Shown: piece by piece, positions 11,814 to 41,824 of the stretch | Layout: each line of letters begins with the position of its first letter | How positions within the stretch are numbered: position 1 is the stretch's first letter | DNA from: an uncultured Hymenobacter sp. | Lineage (GTDB): Bacteria > Bacteroidota > Bacteroidia > Cytophagales > Hymenobacteraceae | DNA length: 64,000 nucleotides | Direction of reading: 5' to 3' | NCBI GenBank assembly: GCA_913776615.1 | Contig: CAJYPK010000060.1 | Location: forward strand, 1-64,000 | Position numbers and translations under genes: made by a program | The notes under the pieces: model-generated | Seen by the model: only the letters and a program-made list of their open reading frames with translations | What the model was told of the DNA's origin: nothing | Databases searched by the model: none

Positions 11814-11883
11814 TTGCGCGGACTTTGTAGTCCACGGGCGGTCGGGTGCCCACTATCGCCCGCGGATTACAAAGTCCGCGCAA
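11814..11883. repeat. Family G palindrome upstream of gltB
   Basis: The arms TTGCGCGGACTTTGTAGTCC and, on the far side, GGATTACAAAGTCCGCGCAA flank a loop containing CGGGCGG and CGCCCG. The second arm ends 16 bases before the gltB start codon, so the structure would form in the gltB leader and could influence its translation. Confidence 0.75.
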
Positions 11884-11899
11884 CATTTCATCGCCCCCC

Positions 11900-14800
11900 A
11901 TGACTACGCCCACCCTTTACCGGCCCGAGTTTGAGCACGATGCGTGCGGCACGGGCTTCATTACCTACATCGATGGGCGCAAGAGCCACCAGATTGTGGC
12001 CGATGCCCTCACCATGCTCGCCAACATGGAGCACCGCGGCGCCTGCGGCTGCGATTCCGACTCGGGCGACGGGGCGGGCGTGCTGCTTCAGCTCCCGCAC
12101 TGGTTTCTACTGGAAGAAGGTGTAAAGCATGGCATTAGACTCCCCGAGCCGGGCCAGTACGGCGTGGGCATGGTCTTTTTTCCGAAGAAAGAAAAGCTGC
12201 GCGAAGGCACCCGCGCCATCATTGCCGAGGCGGCGCAGCGGCTGGGCATCCCGGTGCTGGGCTACCGCCCGGTACCGGTGCGGACGGAGGGCATCGGCAT
12301 CACGGCCTTGTCGGCCGAACCCGCCATCGAGCAGCTGTTTCTGGGCCGGCCGGTGGGGCTGGCCACGGAGGCTGATTTTGACCGCAAGCTTTTCGTATTG
12401 CGGCGGCTCATCATCAAGAATTTGAAAGAGCAATTGCCGGCTGCGATGGAGGCGTTTTACTTCGCCTCGCTCTCGTGCCGCACTATTATATACAAGGGGC
12501 AGCTGACCACCTTCCAGGTCGGCATGTACTACCCCGACCTGAGCGACGAGCGCGTGACCTCGGCCTTCGGGCTGGTGCACTCGCGCTTTTCGACCAACAC
12601 CATGCCCTCGTGGCGGCTGGCCCAGCCTTTCCGCTACCTGGCTCACAATGGGGAGATTAACACCCTGCGCGGCAACCTCAACTGGTTCTACGCCGGCCTG
12701 CCCACCTACACCTCGCCTTATTTCTCGGCCGAGGAAATGGAAATCCTACTGCCCGTCATCGACCCGGGCCAGTCGGATTCGGCCTGCCTCGACAATATTG
12801 TGGAGCTGCTCACGCACTGCGGCCGCTCGCTGCCCCACGTGCTCATGATGCTGGTGCCCGAAGCCTGGGACGGCAACGAGCAGATGGACCCGCTCAAGAA
12901 GGCGTTCTACGAGTTCCACGCCACCTTCATGTCGCCCTGGGACGGCCCGGCGGCGCTCAACTTTACCGATGGTAACCTCGTGGGGGCCATGCTCGACCGC
13001 AACGGTCTGCGCCCGCTGCGCTACGCCATCACCAACGACGGCCGCGTGCTCGTGGCCTCCGAGGCCGGCACGCTGCCGCTGGCTCCCGAGAGCATTATCA
13101 AGAAGGGTCGCTTGCAGCCGGGCAAGATGTTCGTGGTGGACATGGCCGCCGGCCGCATCCTTACCGACCGCGAGATTAAGGCGCAAGCCGCTAGCCATCA
13201 GCCCTATGGGCAGTGGCTCGACAACTACCAGATCCGCCTCGAAGACCTGCCCGAGCCGCGCCTCACCTTCACCGACCTCGGCGCGGAGGCCGTGCTCAAG
13301 TACCAGCAGGCTTTCGGCTACACCCGCGAAGACCTCGAAACCATCATCGCCCCGATGGCGCTGGAGGGCAAGGAGCCCATCGGCTCGATGGGCGTGGACG
13401 TGCCGCTGGCTGTGCTCTCCGACCAACCCCAGCACCTGAGCAGCTACTTCAAGCAGTTTTTCGCGCAGGTGACCAACCCGCCCATCGACCCCATCCGCGA
13501 GCGGTTGGTGATGAGCCTGGCGACCTTCATCGGCAACAACGGTAACATCCTCGACGAAGACCCCAAGCACTGCCACTGCGTAGCCGCCCGGCAACCCATC
13601 CTCAGCAACCGCGAGCTGGAAAAGCTGCGCAGCATCGATACGGGCTCGTTCCAAGCCAAGACCTTGCAGACTTACTTCAAGGCCGACGGCAAGCCCGGGG
13701 CCTTGCAGCGCGGGCTGGAGCGGCTGTGCCGGTACGCGCAAGACGCGGTAGATGATGGCTTTGAAGTGCTGATTCTGTCGGACCGGGCAATGGACTCGGA
13801 GCACGCGCCCATTCCCTCGCTGCTGGCGGTGTCGGCGGTGCATCACCACCTCATCAAGCGCGGGATGCGCGGCTCGGTGGGCCTGGTGGTCGAGGCCGGC
13901 GACGTGTGGGAAGTACACCATTTTGCCTGCCTGCTGTCGTTTGGGGCCACGGCCATCAACCCCTACCTGGCGCTGGCCACCATCCAGACGCGTCACGCGG
14001 CGGGGCTGCTGGGTACGACGCTACCTGCCGAAAAGCTGGCGTACAACTACATCAAGGCGGTGTGCGACGGGCTGCTCAAGATTTTCTCGAAGATGGGAAT
14101 CTCGACCCTGCAATCGTACCACGGCGCGCAGGTATTCGAGATTCTGGGTTTGAGCCAAAGCTTGGTAGATCAGTATTTTACCGGGGCTGTCACGCGCATC
14201 GAGGGGCTGGGGCTGGATGAGCTGGCCACCGAAACGCTGCACAAGCACTTCCAGGGCTTCCGGCCGACTACCACCATCGGTCCCGAGCTGCTGGCCCCGG
14301 GCGGCGTGTACCAGTGGCGGCGCCAGGGCGAGGCCCACATGTTCGACCCCGAGAGCGTGCATTTGCTGCAGCACGCTACCCGCACCAGTAACTACCAGAC
14401 CTACAAGAAGTACGCGCAGCTACTCAACGAGCACCCCAACCAGCTGTTCACCATCCGGGGGCTGCTGGGCTTTGCCAAGCACCGCCCCAGCATCGCGCTG
14501 GAAGAAGTGGAGCCAGCCGAAAACATCATGAAGCGCTTCGCCACCGGCGCGATGTCGTTCGGCTCCATTTCGCACGAGGCGCACAGCACGCTGGCCATCG
14601 CCATGAACCGCATCGGCGGCAAGAGCAATACCGGCGAGGGTGGCGAAGACCCGCTGCGCTACGAGGTAATGGAAAACGGCGACTCCATGCGCTCGGCCAT
14701 CAAGCAGATTGCCTCGGCCCGCTTCGGCGTCACGGCGCACTACCTGACCAACGCCGACGAGCTGCAAATCAAGATGGCCCAGGGTGCCAAGCCCGGCGAG

Positions 14801-16405
14801 GGCGGCCAACTTCCTGGCCACAAAGTCGATGAGTGGATTGCCAAGGTGCGTCACGCCACGCCCGGCGTGGGTCTCATTTCGCCGCCGCCGCACCACGACA
14901 TCTACTCCATCGAAGATTTGGCGCAGCTGATTTTCGACCTTAAGAATGCCAACCGCGCCGCCCGCATCAACGTGAAGCTGGTGAGCAAGGCGGGCGTGGG
15001 CACCATCGCGGCGGGCGTGGCCAAGGCCCACGCCGACGTGATTCTCATCTCGGGCTACGACGGCGGCACGGGCGCGTCGCCGCTCAGCAGCATCCGCCAC
15101 GCCGGCCTGCCTTGGGAACTGGGCCTGGCCGAAGCGCACCAAACGCTGCTGCGCAGCCAGCTCCGCAGCCGCGTGGTGCTGCAAGCCGACGGCCAGCTCA
15201 AAACCGGCCGCGATCTGGCCATCGCCGCCCTGCTGGGGGCCGAAGAGTTTGGCGTAGCCACGGCGGCGCTTATCGCCGGCGGCTGCATTATGATGCGCAA
15301 GTGCCACCTCAACACCTGCCCGGTGGGCGTGGCCACCCAGGATCCCGAGCTGCGTAAGCTATTCAGCGGCAAGCCCGAGCATATTGTCAACCTCTTCCGC
15401 TTCCTGGCCGAAGAGCTGCGCGAAATCATGGCCGAGCTGGGCTTCCGCACCCTCAACGACATGGTGGGCCGCAGCGAATTTTTGAAGGTCAACCCCGAGG
15501 CGGGCCACTGGAAAGCCAAGCTGCTCAACCTCGACGGCGTGCTCTCGCCCGCCCCCAACCTGTCGGGCGGCACGCTTTACAAGAGCGAGGAGCAGGACCA
15601 CGGCATCGACGAAGTACTCGACTGGCAGTTGTTCGAAAAAGCCGCCCCGGCCCTGGAGCGGCAGGAAGTGGTGGAAGCCGAATTCGCGGTGCGCAACACC
15701 GACCGCACCATCGGCACGCTGCTCTCCAACGAGGTCACCAAGCGTTACCACGCCGCTGGCCTGCCCGCCGATACGCTGCGCTACAAGTTTACCGGCTCGG
15801 CCGGCCAGAGCTTCGGCGCTTTCTCGACCAAGGGCCTCACCTTCAAGCTCGAAGGCGAAGCCAACGACTACGTGGGCAAGGGCTTGAGCGGGGCGCGGCT
15901 GGCCATTTTCCCGCCCGCCAGCAGCACTTTCGTGCCGGAGAACAACATCCTCATCGGCAACGTGGCGCTCTACGGCGCGACCTCGGGCGAGCTCTACGTA
16001 CGCGGCAAGGCGGGCGAGCGCTTCGCGGTGCGCAACTCGGGCGCCACGGCGGTAGTCGAAGGCGTGGGCGACCACGGCTGCGAGTACATGACCGGTGGCC
16101 GGGTGCTGGTACTGGGCCGCACGGGCCGCAACTTCGCCGCCGGCATGAGCGGCGGCCTGGCCTGGATTTACGACCCCCAGGGCCAGTTCCCCATCAACTG
16201 CAACCCCGACATGGTTTCGCTCGAAGGCCTCACCGCCGAGGACGAAGCCGAGATTCTGGCCCTGCTCAAGCAGCACTACGAGCTGACGGGCAGCCACCTG
16301 GCCAACTTCCTGCTGGGCAGCTGGGAGGAAGAAGCCGGACGCTTCGTGAAGGTGTTCCCGCTGGAGTACAAGCGGGTGCTGGTGGGGCGGAAGATGAAGG
16401 CGTAG
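11900..16405 (+). CDS. gltB: Glutamate synthase large subunit GltB
   Basis: The 1501-residue protein converts 2-oxoglutarate and glutamine to two glutamates. The class II glutamine amidotransferase nucleophile is Cys16 (EHDACGTGFI), exposed after removal of a 15-residue propeptide. The central and FMN-binding synthase domains follow, with GGKSNTGEGGED and GYDGGTGASPL. The 3Fe-4S cluster motif is CIMMRKCHLNTCPVGVATQ. The C-terminal GXGXG beta-helix domain contains GATSGELYVRG and GGLAWIYD. ATG 11900 was chosen because it places the Cys correctly; the frame is open 18 codons further upstream, inside the palindrome. Its partner gltD is downstream but separated by a DUF559 gene and repeats. Confidence 0.97.
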   Translation: MTTPTLYRPEFEHDACGTGFITYIDGRKSHQIVADALTMLANMEHRGACGCDSDSGDGAGVLLQLPHWFLLEEGVKHGIRLPEPGQYGVGMVFFPKKEKLREGTRAIIAEAAQRLGIPVLGYRPVPVRTEGIGITALSAEPAIEQLFLGRPVGLATEADFDRKLFVLRRLIIKNLKEQLPAAMEAFYFASLSCRTIIYKGQLTTFQVGMYYPDLSDERVTSAFGLVHSRFSTNTMPSWRLAQPFRYLAHNGEINTLRGNLNWFYAGLPTYTSPYFSAEEMEILLPVIDPGQSDSACLDNIVELLTHCGRSLPHVLMMLVPEAWDGNEQMDPLKKAFYEFHATFMSPWDGPAALNFTDGNLVGAMLDRNGLRPLRYAITNDGRVLVASEAGTLPLAPESIIKKGRLQPGKMFVVDMAAGRILTDREIKAQAASHQPYGQWLDNYQIRLEDLPEPRLTFTDLGAEAVLKYQQAFGYTREDLETIIAPMALEGKEPIGSMGVDVPLAVLSDQPQHLSSYFKQFFAQVTNPPIDPIRERLVMSLATFIGNNGNILDEDPKHCHCVAARQPILSNRELEKLRSIDTGSFQAKTLQTYFKADGKPGALQRGLERLCRYAQDAVDDGFEVLILSDRAMDSEHAPIPSLLAVSAVHHHLIKRGMRGSVGLVVEAGDVWEVHHFACLLSFGATAINPYLALATIQTRHAAGLLGTTLPAEKLAYNYIKAVCDGLLKIFSKMGISTLQSYHGAQVFEILGLSQSLVDQYFTGAVTRIEGLGLDELATETLHKHFQGFRPTTTIGPELLAPGGVYQWRRQGEAHMFDPESVHLLQHATRTSNYQTYKKYAQLLNEHPNQLFTIRGLLGFAKHRPSIALEEVEPAENIMKRFATGAMSFGSISHEAHSTLAIAMNRIGGKSNTGEGGEDPLRYEVMENGDSMRSAIKQIASARFGVTAHYLTNADELQIKMAQGAKPGEGGQLPGHKVDEWIAKVRHATPGVGLISPPPHHDIYSIEDLAQLIFDLKNANRAARINVKLVSKAGVGTIAAGVAKAHADVILISGYDGGTGASPLSSIRHAGLPWELGLAEAHQTLLRSQLRSRVVLQADGQLKTGRDLAIAALLGAEEFGVATAALIAGGCIMMRKCHLNTCPVGVATQDPELRKLFSGKPEHIVNLFRFLAEELREIMAELGFRTLNDMVGRSEFLKVNPEAGHWKAKLLNLDGVLSPAPNLSGGTLYKSEEQDHGIDEVLDWQLFEKAAPALERQEVVEAEFAVRNTDRTIGTLLSNEVTKRYHAAGLPADTLRYKFTGSAGQSFGAFSTKGLTFKLEGEANDYVGKGLSGARLAIFPPASSTFVPENNILIGNVALYGATSGELYVRGKAGERFAVRNSGATAVVEGVGDHGCEYMTGGRVLVLGRTGRNFAAGMSGGLAWIYDPQGQFPINCNPDMVSLEGLTAEDEAEILALLKQHYELTGSHLANFLLGSWEEEAGRFVKVFPLEYKRVLVGRKMKA

Positions 16406-16420
16406 TCTGTTACGGTTTCC

Positions 16421-16568
16421 CTGACGCGGTCGCCTCACCCCCCGGCCCCCTCTCCGAAAAGGAGAGGGGGAGCCGACCGCTTGCTCACGTAAGGCAACCG
16501 TTAGGTAGTCGTCAGGCTCCCCCTCTCCTTTTCGGAGAGGGGGCCGGGGGGTGAGGCGACCGCGTCAG
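16421..16568. repeat. Family B palindrome with 54-base perfect arms
   Basis: Arm 16421-16474 is an exact reverse complement of 16515-16568, with a 40-base spacer. Each arm itself holds the smaller palindrome CCCCCTCTCC-GAAAA-GGAGAGGGGG. It begins 15 bases after the gltB stop. Its right arm recurs in the same orientation at 17014-17063, on the other side of the DUF559 gene. Confidence 0.95.
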
Positions 16569-16591
16569 AGCAGCCTATAATTATCAGCCAC

Positions 16592-16990
16592 ATGAATCCC
16601 GTTGATGCATACCTGCCCCAAGAGAAGATTTTCACTGCCGATAAAAAACAGTACAGCAAACTCAATCTAAAGGAGCGGGCCAGAAATATGCGCCACGAGC
16701 CTACCCCCGCTGAAGCCAAGCTGTGGGAGTACTTACGAGGCAATCAACTAGGAGTAAAATTTCGCCGCCGGCACAGCATCGACCGCTACATCGCCGATTT
16801 CATCTGCCTCTCGCACAAACTCATTGTAGAACTAGATGGAGCCGGCCACTTAGAACCTAGCCAAGCCGATTACGACCGCGGGCGCTCAGCCCTGCTAATC
16901 GAGCTAGGTTACCGAGTGCTTCGCTTTTCTAACGCACAAGCACTCAATCAGACTGAAGAAGTACTCAACACTATCAAAGCCAGCATATAA
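16592..16990 (+). CDS. DUF559 family endonuclease-like protein
   Basis: The 132-residue protein belongs to the DUF559 (Vsr-like, PD-(D/E)XK fold) group. The N-terminal helix region includes RNMRHEPTPAEAKLWEYLR, followed by FRRRHSIDRYIADFICLSHK and IVELDGAGH. D69, E80 and H86 sit where metal ligands of the fold are expected; the tail YRVLRFSNAQAL is also characteristic. It starts at ATG 16592, 24 bases after the palindrome at 16421-16568, and is followed 24 bases later by another copy of the same repeat. It thus interrupts the gltB-gltD pair. No transposase or methylase is adjacent. Activity on DNA is inferred from the fold only. Confidence 0.85.
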   Translation: MNPVDAYLPQEKIFTADKKQYSKLNLKERARNMRHEPTPAEAKLWEYLRGNQLGVKFRRRHSIDRYIADFICLSHKLIVELDGAGHLEPSQADYDRGRSALLIELGYRVLRFSNAQALNQTEEVLNTIKASI

Positions 16991-17013
16991 AGTACGCAAC
17001 GCCCAGCTTCCCA

Positions 17014-17063
17014 AGTCGTCAGGCTCCCCCTCTCCTTTTCGGAGAGGGGGCCGGGGGTGAGGC
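17014..17063. repeat. Family B repeat, single arm copy
   Basis: This copy matches the right arm of the upstream palindrome in direct orientation, starting AGTCGTCAGGCTCC (16507 and 17014) and ending GTGAGGCG. One G is missing from the G-run. Together they place the DUF559 gene between direct repeats about 507 bases apart. It ends 22 bases before gltD. Confidence 0.9.
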
Positions 17064-17084: not shown

Positions 17085-18554
17085 ATGGGCAACATCACCG
17101 GCTTCAAAGAATACGCACGCACCGCGCCGCCCAAAGCGGCTCCTACTGAGCGTGTGGCTCACTATCAAGAATTTATCGGCCTGTACCCGCAGGGCGAGCT
17201 GCACCAGCAGGCGGCGCGCTGCATGAACTGCGGCATTCCGTTTTGTCACTCGGGCTGCCCGCTGGGCAACATCATTCCCGAGTTCAACGAGGCGGTGTAC
17301 CAGCAGGATTGGCGGGCGGCCTACGATATTCTCTCGGCCACCAACAACTTTCCCGAGTTTACGGGCCGCATCTGCCCTGCGCCCTGCGAGTCGGCTTGCG
17401 TGCTGAGCATCCACAGCGCGCCGGTGGCCATTGAGGAAATTGAGAAGCACATTATCGAAATCGCCTTTGAGAAGGGCTTCGTGCAGCCCACCGCACCGGT
17501 GCTCAAAACCGGCAAGCAGGTGGCCGTGGTGGGCAGCGGGCCAGCCGGGCTGGCGGTAGCGGCGCAGCTTACCGAAGCCGGGCATACCGTGACGGTTTTC
17601 GAGCGCGACCCGCACCCGGGCGGGCTGCTGCGCTACGGCGTACCCGATTTCAAGCTGGAAAAATGGGTGATTGAGCGCCGCATCAAGCTGCTCGAAGACG
17701 CGGGCGTAACCTTCCGCTGCAACGTGGAAATCGGCCGCGACCTCTCGGCCGACGAGCTGCGGCAGGCCTTCGACGCGGTAATGCTGGCGGGCGGGGCCTC
17801 GGCCCCGCGCCCGCTCGACCTGCCCGGCCGCGACCTGGCGGGCATTCACTACGCGATGGAGTACCTCACCCAGCAAAACCGCCGCGTGAGCGACACGCCC
17901 ATCGACAGTGAGCACATCCTGGCCGATGGCCTCGACGTGGTCGTAATCGGCAGCGGCGATACGGGCTCCGACTGCGTGGGCACGGCCAACCGCCAGCAGG
18001 CCAAGTCAGTAGCGCAGTTTGCCATGATGCACCAGCCCGGCGAGGAGCGCCCCGCCTACACCCCCTGGCCGCTGTATCCCAACGTCTTCCGCACCAGCAG
18101 CTCGCACGAGGAAGGCTGCCAGCGCTACTGGGGCGTGAACACCAAGGCTTACCTCGGCGACGAGCACGGCCACGTGCGCGCTCTGCTAGTGAGCGACATC
18201 ACCTGGGAAACCGACGAAATGGGCCGCCGCGTCCGCTTCGAGGAAATCGCCGGCTCGGACCGGGAGATTCCCTGCCAACTAGTGCTGCTAGCCCTGGGCT
18301 TCACCGGCCCGGCCAACCCCAGCCTGCTCAGCCAGTTGGGCGTGAGCCTCGACGCTCGCGGCAACGTGCAGGCTCCCGAAACCACCTATCACACCAGCGT
18401 ACCCGGCGTATTCGTGGCCGGCGACATGCGCCGCGGACAGTCGCTCATCGTATGGGCCATCTCGGAAGGCCGCGAGGCCGCCCGGCAGATCGATCTGTAC
18501 CTGATGGGCAAAACGAGTTTGCCGAGCAAGAATGGGCCGGGGGCGCGGGATTAG
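17085..18554 (+). CDS. gltD: Glutamate synthase small subunit GltD
   Basis: The 489-residue flavoprotein supplies electrons from NADPH to GltB. The N-terminal Fe-S domain has the cysteine motifs CMNCGIPFCHSGCPLGN and ICPAPCESACVL. The FAD-binding Rossmann motif is VAVVGSGPAGLAVAAQL (about residues 146-162), followed by GGLLRYGVPDFKLEK. A second nucleotide-binding motif is VVVIGSGDTGSDCVG, and GVFVAGDMRRGQSL ends the FAD domain. Length is normal. It lies downstream of gltB on the same strand, split from it by about 680 bases of repeat and DUF559 gene. The palindrome at 18601-18697 with a T-run follows. Confidence 0.97.
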   Translation: MGNITGFKEYARTAPPKAAPTERVAHYQEFIGLYPQGELHQQAARCMNCGIPFCHSGCPLGNIIPEFNEAVYQQDWRAAYDILSATNNFPEFTGRICPAPCESACVLSIHSAPVAIEEIEKHIIEIAFEKGFVQPTAPVLKTGKQVAVVGSGPAGLAVAAQLTEAGHTVTVFERDPHPGGLLRYGVPDFKLEKWVIERRIKLLEDAGVTFRCNVEIGRDLSADELRQAFDAVMLAGGASAPRPLDLPGRDLAGIHYAMEYLTQQNRRVSDTPIDSEHILADGLDVVVIGSGDTGSDCVGTANRQQAKSVAQFAMMHQPGEERPAYTPWPLYPNVFRTSSSHEEGCQRYWGVNTKAYLGDEHGHVRALLVSDITWETDEMGRRVRFEEIAGSDREIPCQLVLLALGFTGPANPSLLSQLGVSLDARGNVQAPETTYHTSVPGVFVAGDMRRGQSLIVWAISEGREAARQIDLYLMGKTSLPSKNGPGARD

Positions 18555-41627: not shown

Positions 41628-41824
41628 TGCCCTGCCGGTGGACCCCACCCCCGGCCCCTCCCCTTCGGGAGAGGGGAGCCTTTCGCGAGCTGTTAGCCTT
41701 TAGCTGTTAGCTGCTAGCTTTTCTAAACAGCGAGCTAACAGCTAATAGCTAGCAGCTAACAGCCTACGGTCGGCTCCCCTCTCCCAAAGGGGAGGGGCCG
41801 GGGGTGGGGTCCACCGGCAGGGCA
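41628..41824. repeat. Family B palindrome, middle layer
   Basis: Arms of 53 bases at 41628-41680 and 41772-41824 match with one mismatch, near the small loop. They contain the CCTCCCC and GGGAGAGGGGAG cores and GGTGGACCCCACCCCC. The bases beyond the core differ from the gltB-gltD copy. Confidence 0.9.
41686..41766. repeat. Family C palindrome, inner layer
   Basis: AGCTGTTAGCTGCTAGC and GCTAGCAGCTAACAGC pair across a short loop of TTTTCTAAACAGCG. Related copies are at 34487-34628 and 51364-51469. Confidence 0.88.

Follow-up and report, generated by a model that had tools for sequence, protein, structure and literature searches.

What does a small nuclease gene do between long palindromes, at a place where it parts gltB from gltD? 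We address this question for one locus in the window, by which we mean the whole 64,000-nucleotide stretch of the genome of an uncultured Hymenobacter (G000) that was analysed, and for related genes in its family, in its phylum and in distant bacteria. The gene belongs to DUF559, a family that is common but has no settled function; a link between this family and a class of repeats would give both of them a testable function.

The DUF559 unit between gltB and gltD

The unit is flanked from outside by gltB (11846-16405) and gltD (17085-18554), both on the plus strand and both named from a reading of their translations. It begins with a palindrome of 148 bp, whose left arm (16421-16474) and right arm (16515-16568) match perfectly over 54 nt, or over 61 nt at 95% when extended, on the two sides of a 40-nt spacer (16475-16514). 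The DUF559 (PF04480) gene (16592-16990, plus strand) encodes 132 amino acids and starts 24 nt past the palindrome. At 24 nt past its end follows a third repeat (17014-17062), of which 44 nt (17014-17057) are identical to the right arm (16507-16550), in direct orientation relative to that arm. A first-pass annotation had described this layout, including the 24-base gaps and the separation of gltB from gltD, and the coordinates bear it out. No transposase ORF was seen in the unit in the ORF list.

Each palindrome arm is itself a hairpin, so that the palindrome amounts to two hairpin repeats in inverted orientation, a doublet similar to a REPIN. The left arm comprises the outer arm, the tag and the hairpin of repeat 1. 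The hairpin (16446-16470) has a stem of 10 bp and the 5-nt loop GAAAA, while the tag CCTCACCCCCC together with a 2-nt second loop (16433-16445) mirrors the C/T arm and is a putative third strand of a triplex. The corresponding hairpin and tag of repeat 2 are found at 16519-16543 and 16546-16556 (GGGGGGTGAGG), and those of repeat 3 at 17026-17050 and 17053-17062. In general form, the arm hairpin reads CCCCCTCTCC-loop-GGAGAGGGGG. The repeat core occurs three times in the window against an expectation of 0.00, and the single-stranded fold of 16414-16575 has a z-score of -17.6 relative to 200 shuffles. A gene-less doublet at 41628-41824 had been taken for a further copy of the same palindrome core. 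This proved incorrect: the doublet is of a related type, CCCCTCCCC..GGGAGAGGGG, with one stem mismatch, and a scan for perfect stems gave no hairpin there. A doublet of this other type adjoins the second full DUF559 gene of the genome (L002, C28:17782-18102). At C1:135556, the third DUF559 match is a broken fragment, and no such hairpin accompanies it.

The window protein matches Pfam family PF04480 with an E-value of 1.9e-33 and 115 bits (gathering score 20.6), and, below the cut-off, REase_MTES_1575. The residues R34, E41, D69, E80, D82 and H86 are among those invariant in an alignment of 35 sequences. A predicted model (mean pLDDT of 79, with the first 21 residues poor) is closest in fold to 3hrl (Z 15.1), followed by I-Bth0305I (3r3p, 11.5), Vsr (1cw0, 9.7) and TnsA (7.2). 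The entry 3hrl is the Neisseria endonuclease-like protein NGO0050, which is itself a DUF559 protein and the sole phmmer match among solved structures. According to the model, the window protein is predicted to share the Vsr / EDxHD nuclease fold, the fold of Vsr and I-Bth0305I. Unlike these two enzymes, it is a stand-alone small domain encoded between repeats, and the unit has neither an intron nor a cytosine methylase gene. Judged by its sequence, the window gene is under purifying selection, with a dN/dS of 0.10 relative to its counterpart in G183 at a dS near saturation; the copy between gltB and gltD in G192 carries an in-frame stop. A search with PADLOC for a defence gene gave a weak match only (DpdF, E 0.0037).

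Hairpin repeats beside DUF559 genes in other bacteria

The first-pass annotation proposed that DUF559 genes should be enriched beside this repeat in related genomes, and mentioned similar neighbourhoods elsewhere. Within the family we compared 92 loci, namely the three of the window's genome, 29 of the 30 best-scoring ones (one per genome) and 60 chosen from the matches listed (40 from genera g2-g6 and 20 from g1), with L029 excluded for its position at a contig end. An exact inverted pair of at least 12 nt, with one member on each side of the gene and no more than 300 bp away, is present at 83 of the 92 genes, compared to 2/91 and 3/92 for windows shifted by 750 bp. One hairpin stands on each side of the gene at 54/92 loci.

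A second set consisted of 80 named loci, the best 80 of 565 matches listed when ranked by likeness to an Azospirillum protein, one of which (L275) has no flank. Their titles include Azospirillum, Xanthomonas, Sphingomonas, Nitrospira, Chloroflexota, Desulfobacterales, Candidatus Binatia, Candidatus Bipolaricaulota, Gastranaerophilales and Clostridia. A hairpin that runs from a C/T 5' arm to a G/A 3' arm lies near 63 of the 79 genes (1/76 and 2/74 in shifted windows) and on both sides of 32 (shifted, 0 and 0), and a hairpin of the opposite polarity near none of the 79. Outside the family but within the window's phylum, such hairpins accompany 23/29 DUF559 genes (shifted, 4/29 and 5/26), a count in which the match positions of three loci at contig ends (L159, L162, L175) were wrong in the scan; in the family, 12/91 and 4/92 shifted windows hold one. 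Loci without a repeat amount to 9/92 in the family (no pair) and 16/79 among the named loci (no hairpin). The work based on proteins omitted four named loci whose match contains a stop (L215, L216, L253, L256) and five phylum loci without a tblastn match. Both the enrichment and such neighbourhoods in other genomes thus stood up. A chance origin of the pairing was rejected on the zero expectation for the core and on the shifted-window controls in the family and the named loci.

The Y1_Tnp loci of the family provide a comparison. None of 30 has a hairpin of this kind, and 16 of the 30 have exact inverted pairs of other sequence, indicating that the method detects RAYT-like units and separates them from DUF559 units. 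Ten DUF559 loci of a plasmid collection, out of 38 matches, have the hairpin in 6/10 cases (shifted, 1/10 and 2/10). On a Sinorhizobium plasmid (L142), the pair ATCTCCCCC..GGGGGAGAT is seen to the right of the DUF559 match; we take it to resemble the rhizobial RIME repeats.

In each repeat, a short loop joins a C/T arm to a G/A arm, after which comes a GGGGTGAGG-like tag that mirrors the G/A arm and, folded back, could serve as third strand in an intrastrand triplex. The tag (CCTCACCCC and variants) stands beside the stem and is a mirror of the C/T arm in which A may also stand opposite T. As the tag mirrors a hairpin arm, the unit could form an intrastrand triplex, and the mirror rule is the one that the third strand has to obey in an intrastrand triplex of the purine motif. 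In the family the best own tag of a locus scores 0.99 (77/82 at 0.9 or above), compared to 0.81 for tags of loci with another arm and at most 0.72 for shuffled flanks, and the named loci give 0.90 (38/53 at 0.9 or above), 0.80 and 0.74, respectively; the own-tag score takes the best unit per locus and so favours own over other tags, and the shuffled control is equally free. The tag motif is absent in 37/163 family hairpins and in 57/117 named ones. In the family it mostly points outwards from the gene (102 outer vs. 22 inner), and in the named loci L208-L287 mostly inwards, towards the gene (49 inner vs. 10 outer). The motif GT[AG]G lies no more than 8 nt from the stem in 14/163 hairpins of the family and in 2/117 of the named loci, at shuffled rates of 0.04 and 0.04.

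An alignment of 18 complete doublets of the window's genome, with spacers of 47-108 nt, shows that, up to about 40 nt from the hairpin, outer arms agree better when they belong to the same copy than when they belong to different ones (0.79 vs. 0.47 at 15-20 nt, and 0.57 vs. 0.35 at 30-35 nt). It looks as if the two arms of a copy had been homogenised with each other. A search against Rfam gave no match at the gathering score, and the 12 matches below it were 11 miRNAs and one IRES. We disfavour a reading of the hairpins as terminators, since tags, mirror rule, type specificity and dispersal exceed what a terminator would have.

Repeats of comparable layout are known from E. coli MG1655 as TM_ECO or PIT intrastrand-triplex repeats, described by Holder et al. 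in 2015 (PMC4666352). Their pattern, CCCTCNCCC-N3-6-GGGNGAGGG-N3-GGGNGAGGG, shares with the DUF559 repeats the succession of C-rich arm, loop, G-rich arm, short loop and second G-rich arm, as well as the intergenic location, the occasional inverted pairs and the unstable sites. Holder et al. reported triplex formation in solution for E. coli oligonucleotides, tied the repeats to local genome instability, never found activities of genetic mobility around them, and left open the origin of triplex-forming G/C-rich repeats, which are common between genes (PMC4666352). In their description the repeats have no partner gene, unlike the repeats here, which are linked to DUF559.

With at most two substitutions, and loops of 3-8 and 2-4 allowed, the TM_ECO pattern is found within 350 bp of DUF559 at 49/73 named loci (1/70 and 2/72 in shifted windows) and at 9/91 family loci (3/92 and 1/91). 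The window's own repeats are at least four substitutions away from the pattern and keep the mirror rule; we widen the class to such variants, in which the rule is kept and the exact TM_ECO pattern is not. In MG1655, copy 9 of the published Table 1 (1,351,205-1,351,239) has the exact pattern and lies 167 bp from ycjD (1,351,407-1,351,760), which is annotated as DUF559. Four E. coli strains have the pattern on one side only of the DUF559 gene, and an inverted pair lies 3' of the gene in strain KE47 (L147) and 3' of ycjD in HYM1 (L373). The 860-bp ycjD region is covered to at least 80% in 3362 of 5426 E. coli genomes. Three strains without ycjD have no pattern repeat; as a TetR regulator and efflux genes follow fabI in them, they do not represent a simple empty site. 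With ycjD and 23 published repeat copies, the question reaches E. coli K-12, and the link to DUF559 provides a possible cause of the instability reported near triplex repeats.

Dispersed copies and the history of repeats, genes and sites

The window's genome holds 115 exact repeat cores, many of them in pairs about 70-130 bp apart, and none of the reversed control pattern. Among the named loci, 50 of the 80 were taken into a count of dispersal, and 36 of these 50 genomes have at least 10 pattern matches, compared to 1/50 for the reversed pattern (2902 vs. 73 matches in total). A DUF559 match is present in 176/200 family genomes and in 109/198 phylum genomes. At least three repeat copies occur in 40/84 phylum genomes with a strong DUF559 match, in 3/25 with a weak one (E > 1e-10) and in 12/89 with none (Fisher p of 1e-6 for strong vs. 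none); the counts here and in the genus used one pattern and miss other repeat types. In the genus, where genomes with a weak match only were counted as having none, the number of repeats follows the number of DUF559 genes (Spearman 0.51, n=116), with a median of 31.5 repeats in genomes with DUF559 and 9.5 in those without. Repeats are commoner where DUF559 is present, but repeat-rich genomes without a DUF559 match exist (G138 with 89 repeats, G156 with 87 and G112 with 53), and G184 has 100 repeats and a weak match only.

Repeats and proteins share a history. When nine repeat types, assigned by our own rules, are placed on the protein tree, they require 13 changes, compared to 48-58 in 300 shuffles (n=83). 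Similarity between repeats correlates with similarity between proteins (Mantel 0.55, null maximum 0.14, n=86). Where a paralogue was sampled (33 loci), the repeat is in 30 cases closer to the one beside the most similar protein of another genome than to those of its own genome. The type with an AAAAACA loop occurs in 30/120 family genomes, all 30 of genus g3, and DUF559 genes bracketed by this type were observed in that genus. Because repeat and gene are linked, this joint history could reflect co-inheritance and not recognition.

Has the DUF559 gene always been where it is? The junctions between gltB and gltD were compared in the most similar 30 of 76 strong gltD matches, including the window. 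Three of them hold DUF559 with repeats (the window, G192 and G183, the last with its left repeat degraded), three repeats alone (G059, G185 and G092) and four repeats around other small ORFs of 113-161 amino acids (G090, G050, G021 and G173), while five are empty (36-44 bp) and 15 have other sequence. The gene is thus present in some of these junctions and absent in others, and the comparison of occupied and empty junctions proposed in the first-pass annotation tells against a conserved or vertically kept order. The other ORFs between repeat arms (L183, L185, L187, L190) are other cargo or remnants, and none has a Pfam match up to an E-value of 0.1. At a second site (C1:112181), the window's genome has a doublet and its anchors are 230 bp apart, compared to a 56-bp stretch in G050; G192, G138, G184 and G059 have other inserts there. 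No target-site duplication or exact boundary was recognised in occupied and empty sites at the two places.

Palindromes of the TAGCTGCTAGC and CATCCCTAGG types were seen at the second site (L350 and L351, in G184 and G138) and between gltB and gltD (L182/L184), so that these junctions appear to host several foldback families. On a plasmid of Sphingomonas parapaucimobilis (L145, 1165-1575), a DUF559 gene with an inverted pair separates sufB from sufC, a second case of a DUF559 gene within a conserved gene pair.

A conserved ancestral order of gltB, DUF559 and gltD, accompanied by incidental hairpins similar to terminators, is hardly credible. The gene does occupy the same place in G000, G192 and G183. 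On the other hand, relatives have empty junctions, junctions with repeats only and junctions with other ORFs, and the shifted-window controls argue against incidental hairpins. Moreover, the dS of DUF559 exceeds that of its neighbours, at 0.49 vs. 0.25 for gltB and 0.29 for gltD between G000 and G192, and at 1.67 vs. 0.46 and 0.46 between G000 and G183. A conserved vertical order is therefore not supported by the junctions, which vary among relatives; an older DUF559 gene at this site may have been lost repeatedly.

Proposed role of the nuclease and alternative explanations

The recurring pairing suggests that DUF559 is the missing partner enzyme of widespread bacterial repeats. We think it fairly probable that DUF559 proteins are the cognate nucleases of a widespread class of hairpin repeats, in a parallel to RAYT/REP that does without a transposase. 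Two inverted repeats form a REPIN-like doublet, of which many genomes contain tens to hundreds of dispersed copies that carry no gene, and one copy of a repeat type brackets or adjoins a DUF559 gene. When a repeat strand is exposed at a replication fork or as a cruciform, the nuclease might recognise the hairpin or triplex of its own type and nick or cut beside it. The folded strand would then be repaired or copied, which could duplicate the repeat, homogenise its two arms and move or delete it, and the gene would in this way sustain a repeat population without a transposase. If so, REP-like repeat populations need not depend on a transposase. The first-pass annotation had likewise proposed a small mobile unit with the logic of RAYT/REP. 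Flanking inverted repeats, dispersed doublets and the tracking of repeat types agree with this proposal, whereas recognition, cutting and spreading of the repeats by the nuclease are parts that we infer, and no movement of the unit was observed.

The comparison with RAYT/REP rests on features described in PMC2817692, PMC3733652 and PMC8049555. As in a REPtron (a RAYT with its REPs or REPINs), a small gene is bracketed by inverted hairpin repeats, at 83/92 family loci and in the window; gene-less inverted doublets are numerous, types of enzyme and repeat covary, and repeats are commoner in genomes that hold the gene. Unlike in a REPtron, the enzyme is predicted to be a Vsr-type nuclease where a RAYT is an HUH/Y1 transposase, the tag resembles CCTCACCC and not GTAG, and the arms are of pyrimidines and purines and follow the mirror (triplex) rule. 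As it has neither the defining transposase nor a GTAG tag, the DUF559 unit appears to work like RAYT/REP without being a member of it. Searches of the open-access literature gave no report that links DUF559 with repeats; by title and start of abstract, none of the open-access papers naming DUF559 is about repeats, and no open-access paper has both Vsr and "repetitive extragenic palindromic".

Could the gene instead exploit the repeats? The main rival explanation is homing-like: the nuclease cuts a gene-less doublet, gene conversion moves the gene or other cargo into it, and the repeats spread by other means. Leaving aside 3hrl, a DUF559 protein, the solved structure that matches best is that of the homing endonuclease I-Bth0305I, the gene often stands between single repeats (54/92 family loci), other ORFs are found between the same repeats at gltB-gltD, and one genome (G188) has two DUF559 matches of equal score, possibly copies. 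We nevertheless regard homing as unlikely, since paralogues within a genome differ (best similarity of 0.36-0.80 among sampled loci), so that the gene does not seem to multiply, and since the abundance of gene-less doublets would be left unexplained. It is rather improbable, too, that DUF559 is a passenger, i.e. a frequent cargo of doublets that capture genes and are spread by an unlinked enzyme or by replication. This would account for the other ORFs between repeats in 4/30 gltB-gltD junctions and for repeat-rich genomes without a DUF559 match (12/89 in the phylum), but not for the association at most sampled DUF559 loci of distant groups, the lack of these hairpins at Y1_Tnp genes (0/30), or a DUF559 tree that is followed by repeat type.

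Very improbable, in our judgement, is a housekeeping role, in which DUF559, as a repair nuclease of the host, would clear away T:G mismatches or obstacles formed by hairpins or triplexes, and the repeats nearby would serve as its control elements. Such a role would fit the predicted Vsr-like fold and the instability around the repeats reported by Holder et al. (PMC4666352). It would also fit work on the Caulobacter DUF559 protein VsrA, which is proposed to be a mismatch-repair nuclease and is required for the DNA-damage response upon loss of the methylase ScmA (PMC12907096). However, housekeeping predicts neither one repeat type per protein type nor inverted flanking copies, nor the patchy presence of the gene in 176/200 family and 109/198 phylum genomes.

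The reading of DUF559 as a cognate nuclease can be extended to a pan-bacterial mobile repeat system without a transposase, which we put forward tentatively. A single-domain Vsr-type nuclease would recognise and cut a triplex-forming hairpin, and replication or repair by the host would copy it, spread it and homogenise it; DUF559 would partner the TM/PIT repeats, with E. coli included through ycjD, GIY-YIG nucleases would partner the CGTC REPs, and "nuclease plus hairpin" would be a general arrangement. CGTC-tagged REPs, like the DUF559 repeats, are tagged palindromic inverted doublets without a known enzyme, reported without a dedicated transposase, and unlike them have a different tag and stem (PMC3733652). 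A GIY-YIG nuclease is a possible partner enzyme of this superfamily.

A CGTCAT/TGTCAT tag running from outside in was seen on both sides of 13/30 GIY-YIG loci of the family (L308-L337), compared to 1/30 and 1/29 in shifted windows, and at 0/91 DUF559 and 0/30 Y1_Tnp loci. On at least one side, 25/30 GIY-YIG loci have the tag, but so do 11/30 and 8/29 shifted windows. Exact inverted pairs flank 17/30 of these loci (shifted, 1/30 and 2/29), and a small GIY-YIG nuclease gene is also present at a gltB-gltD junction (L206).
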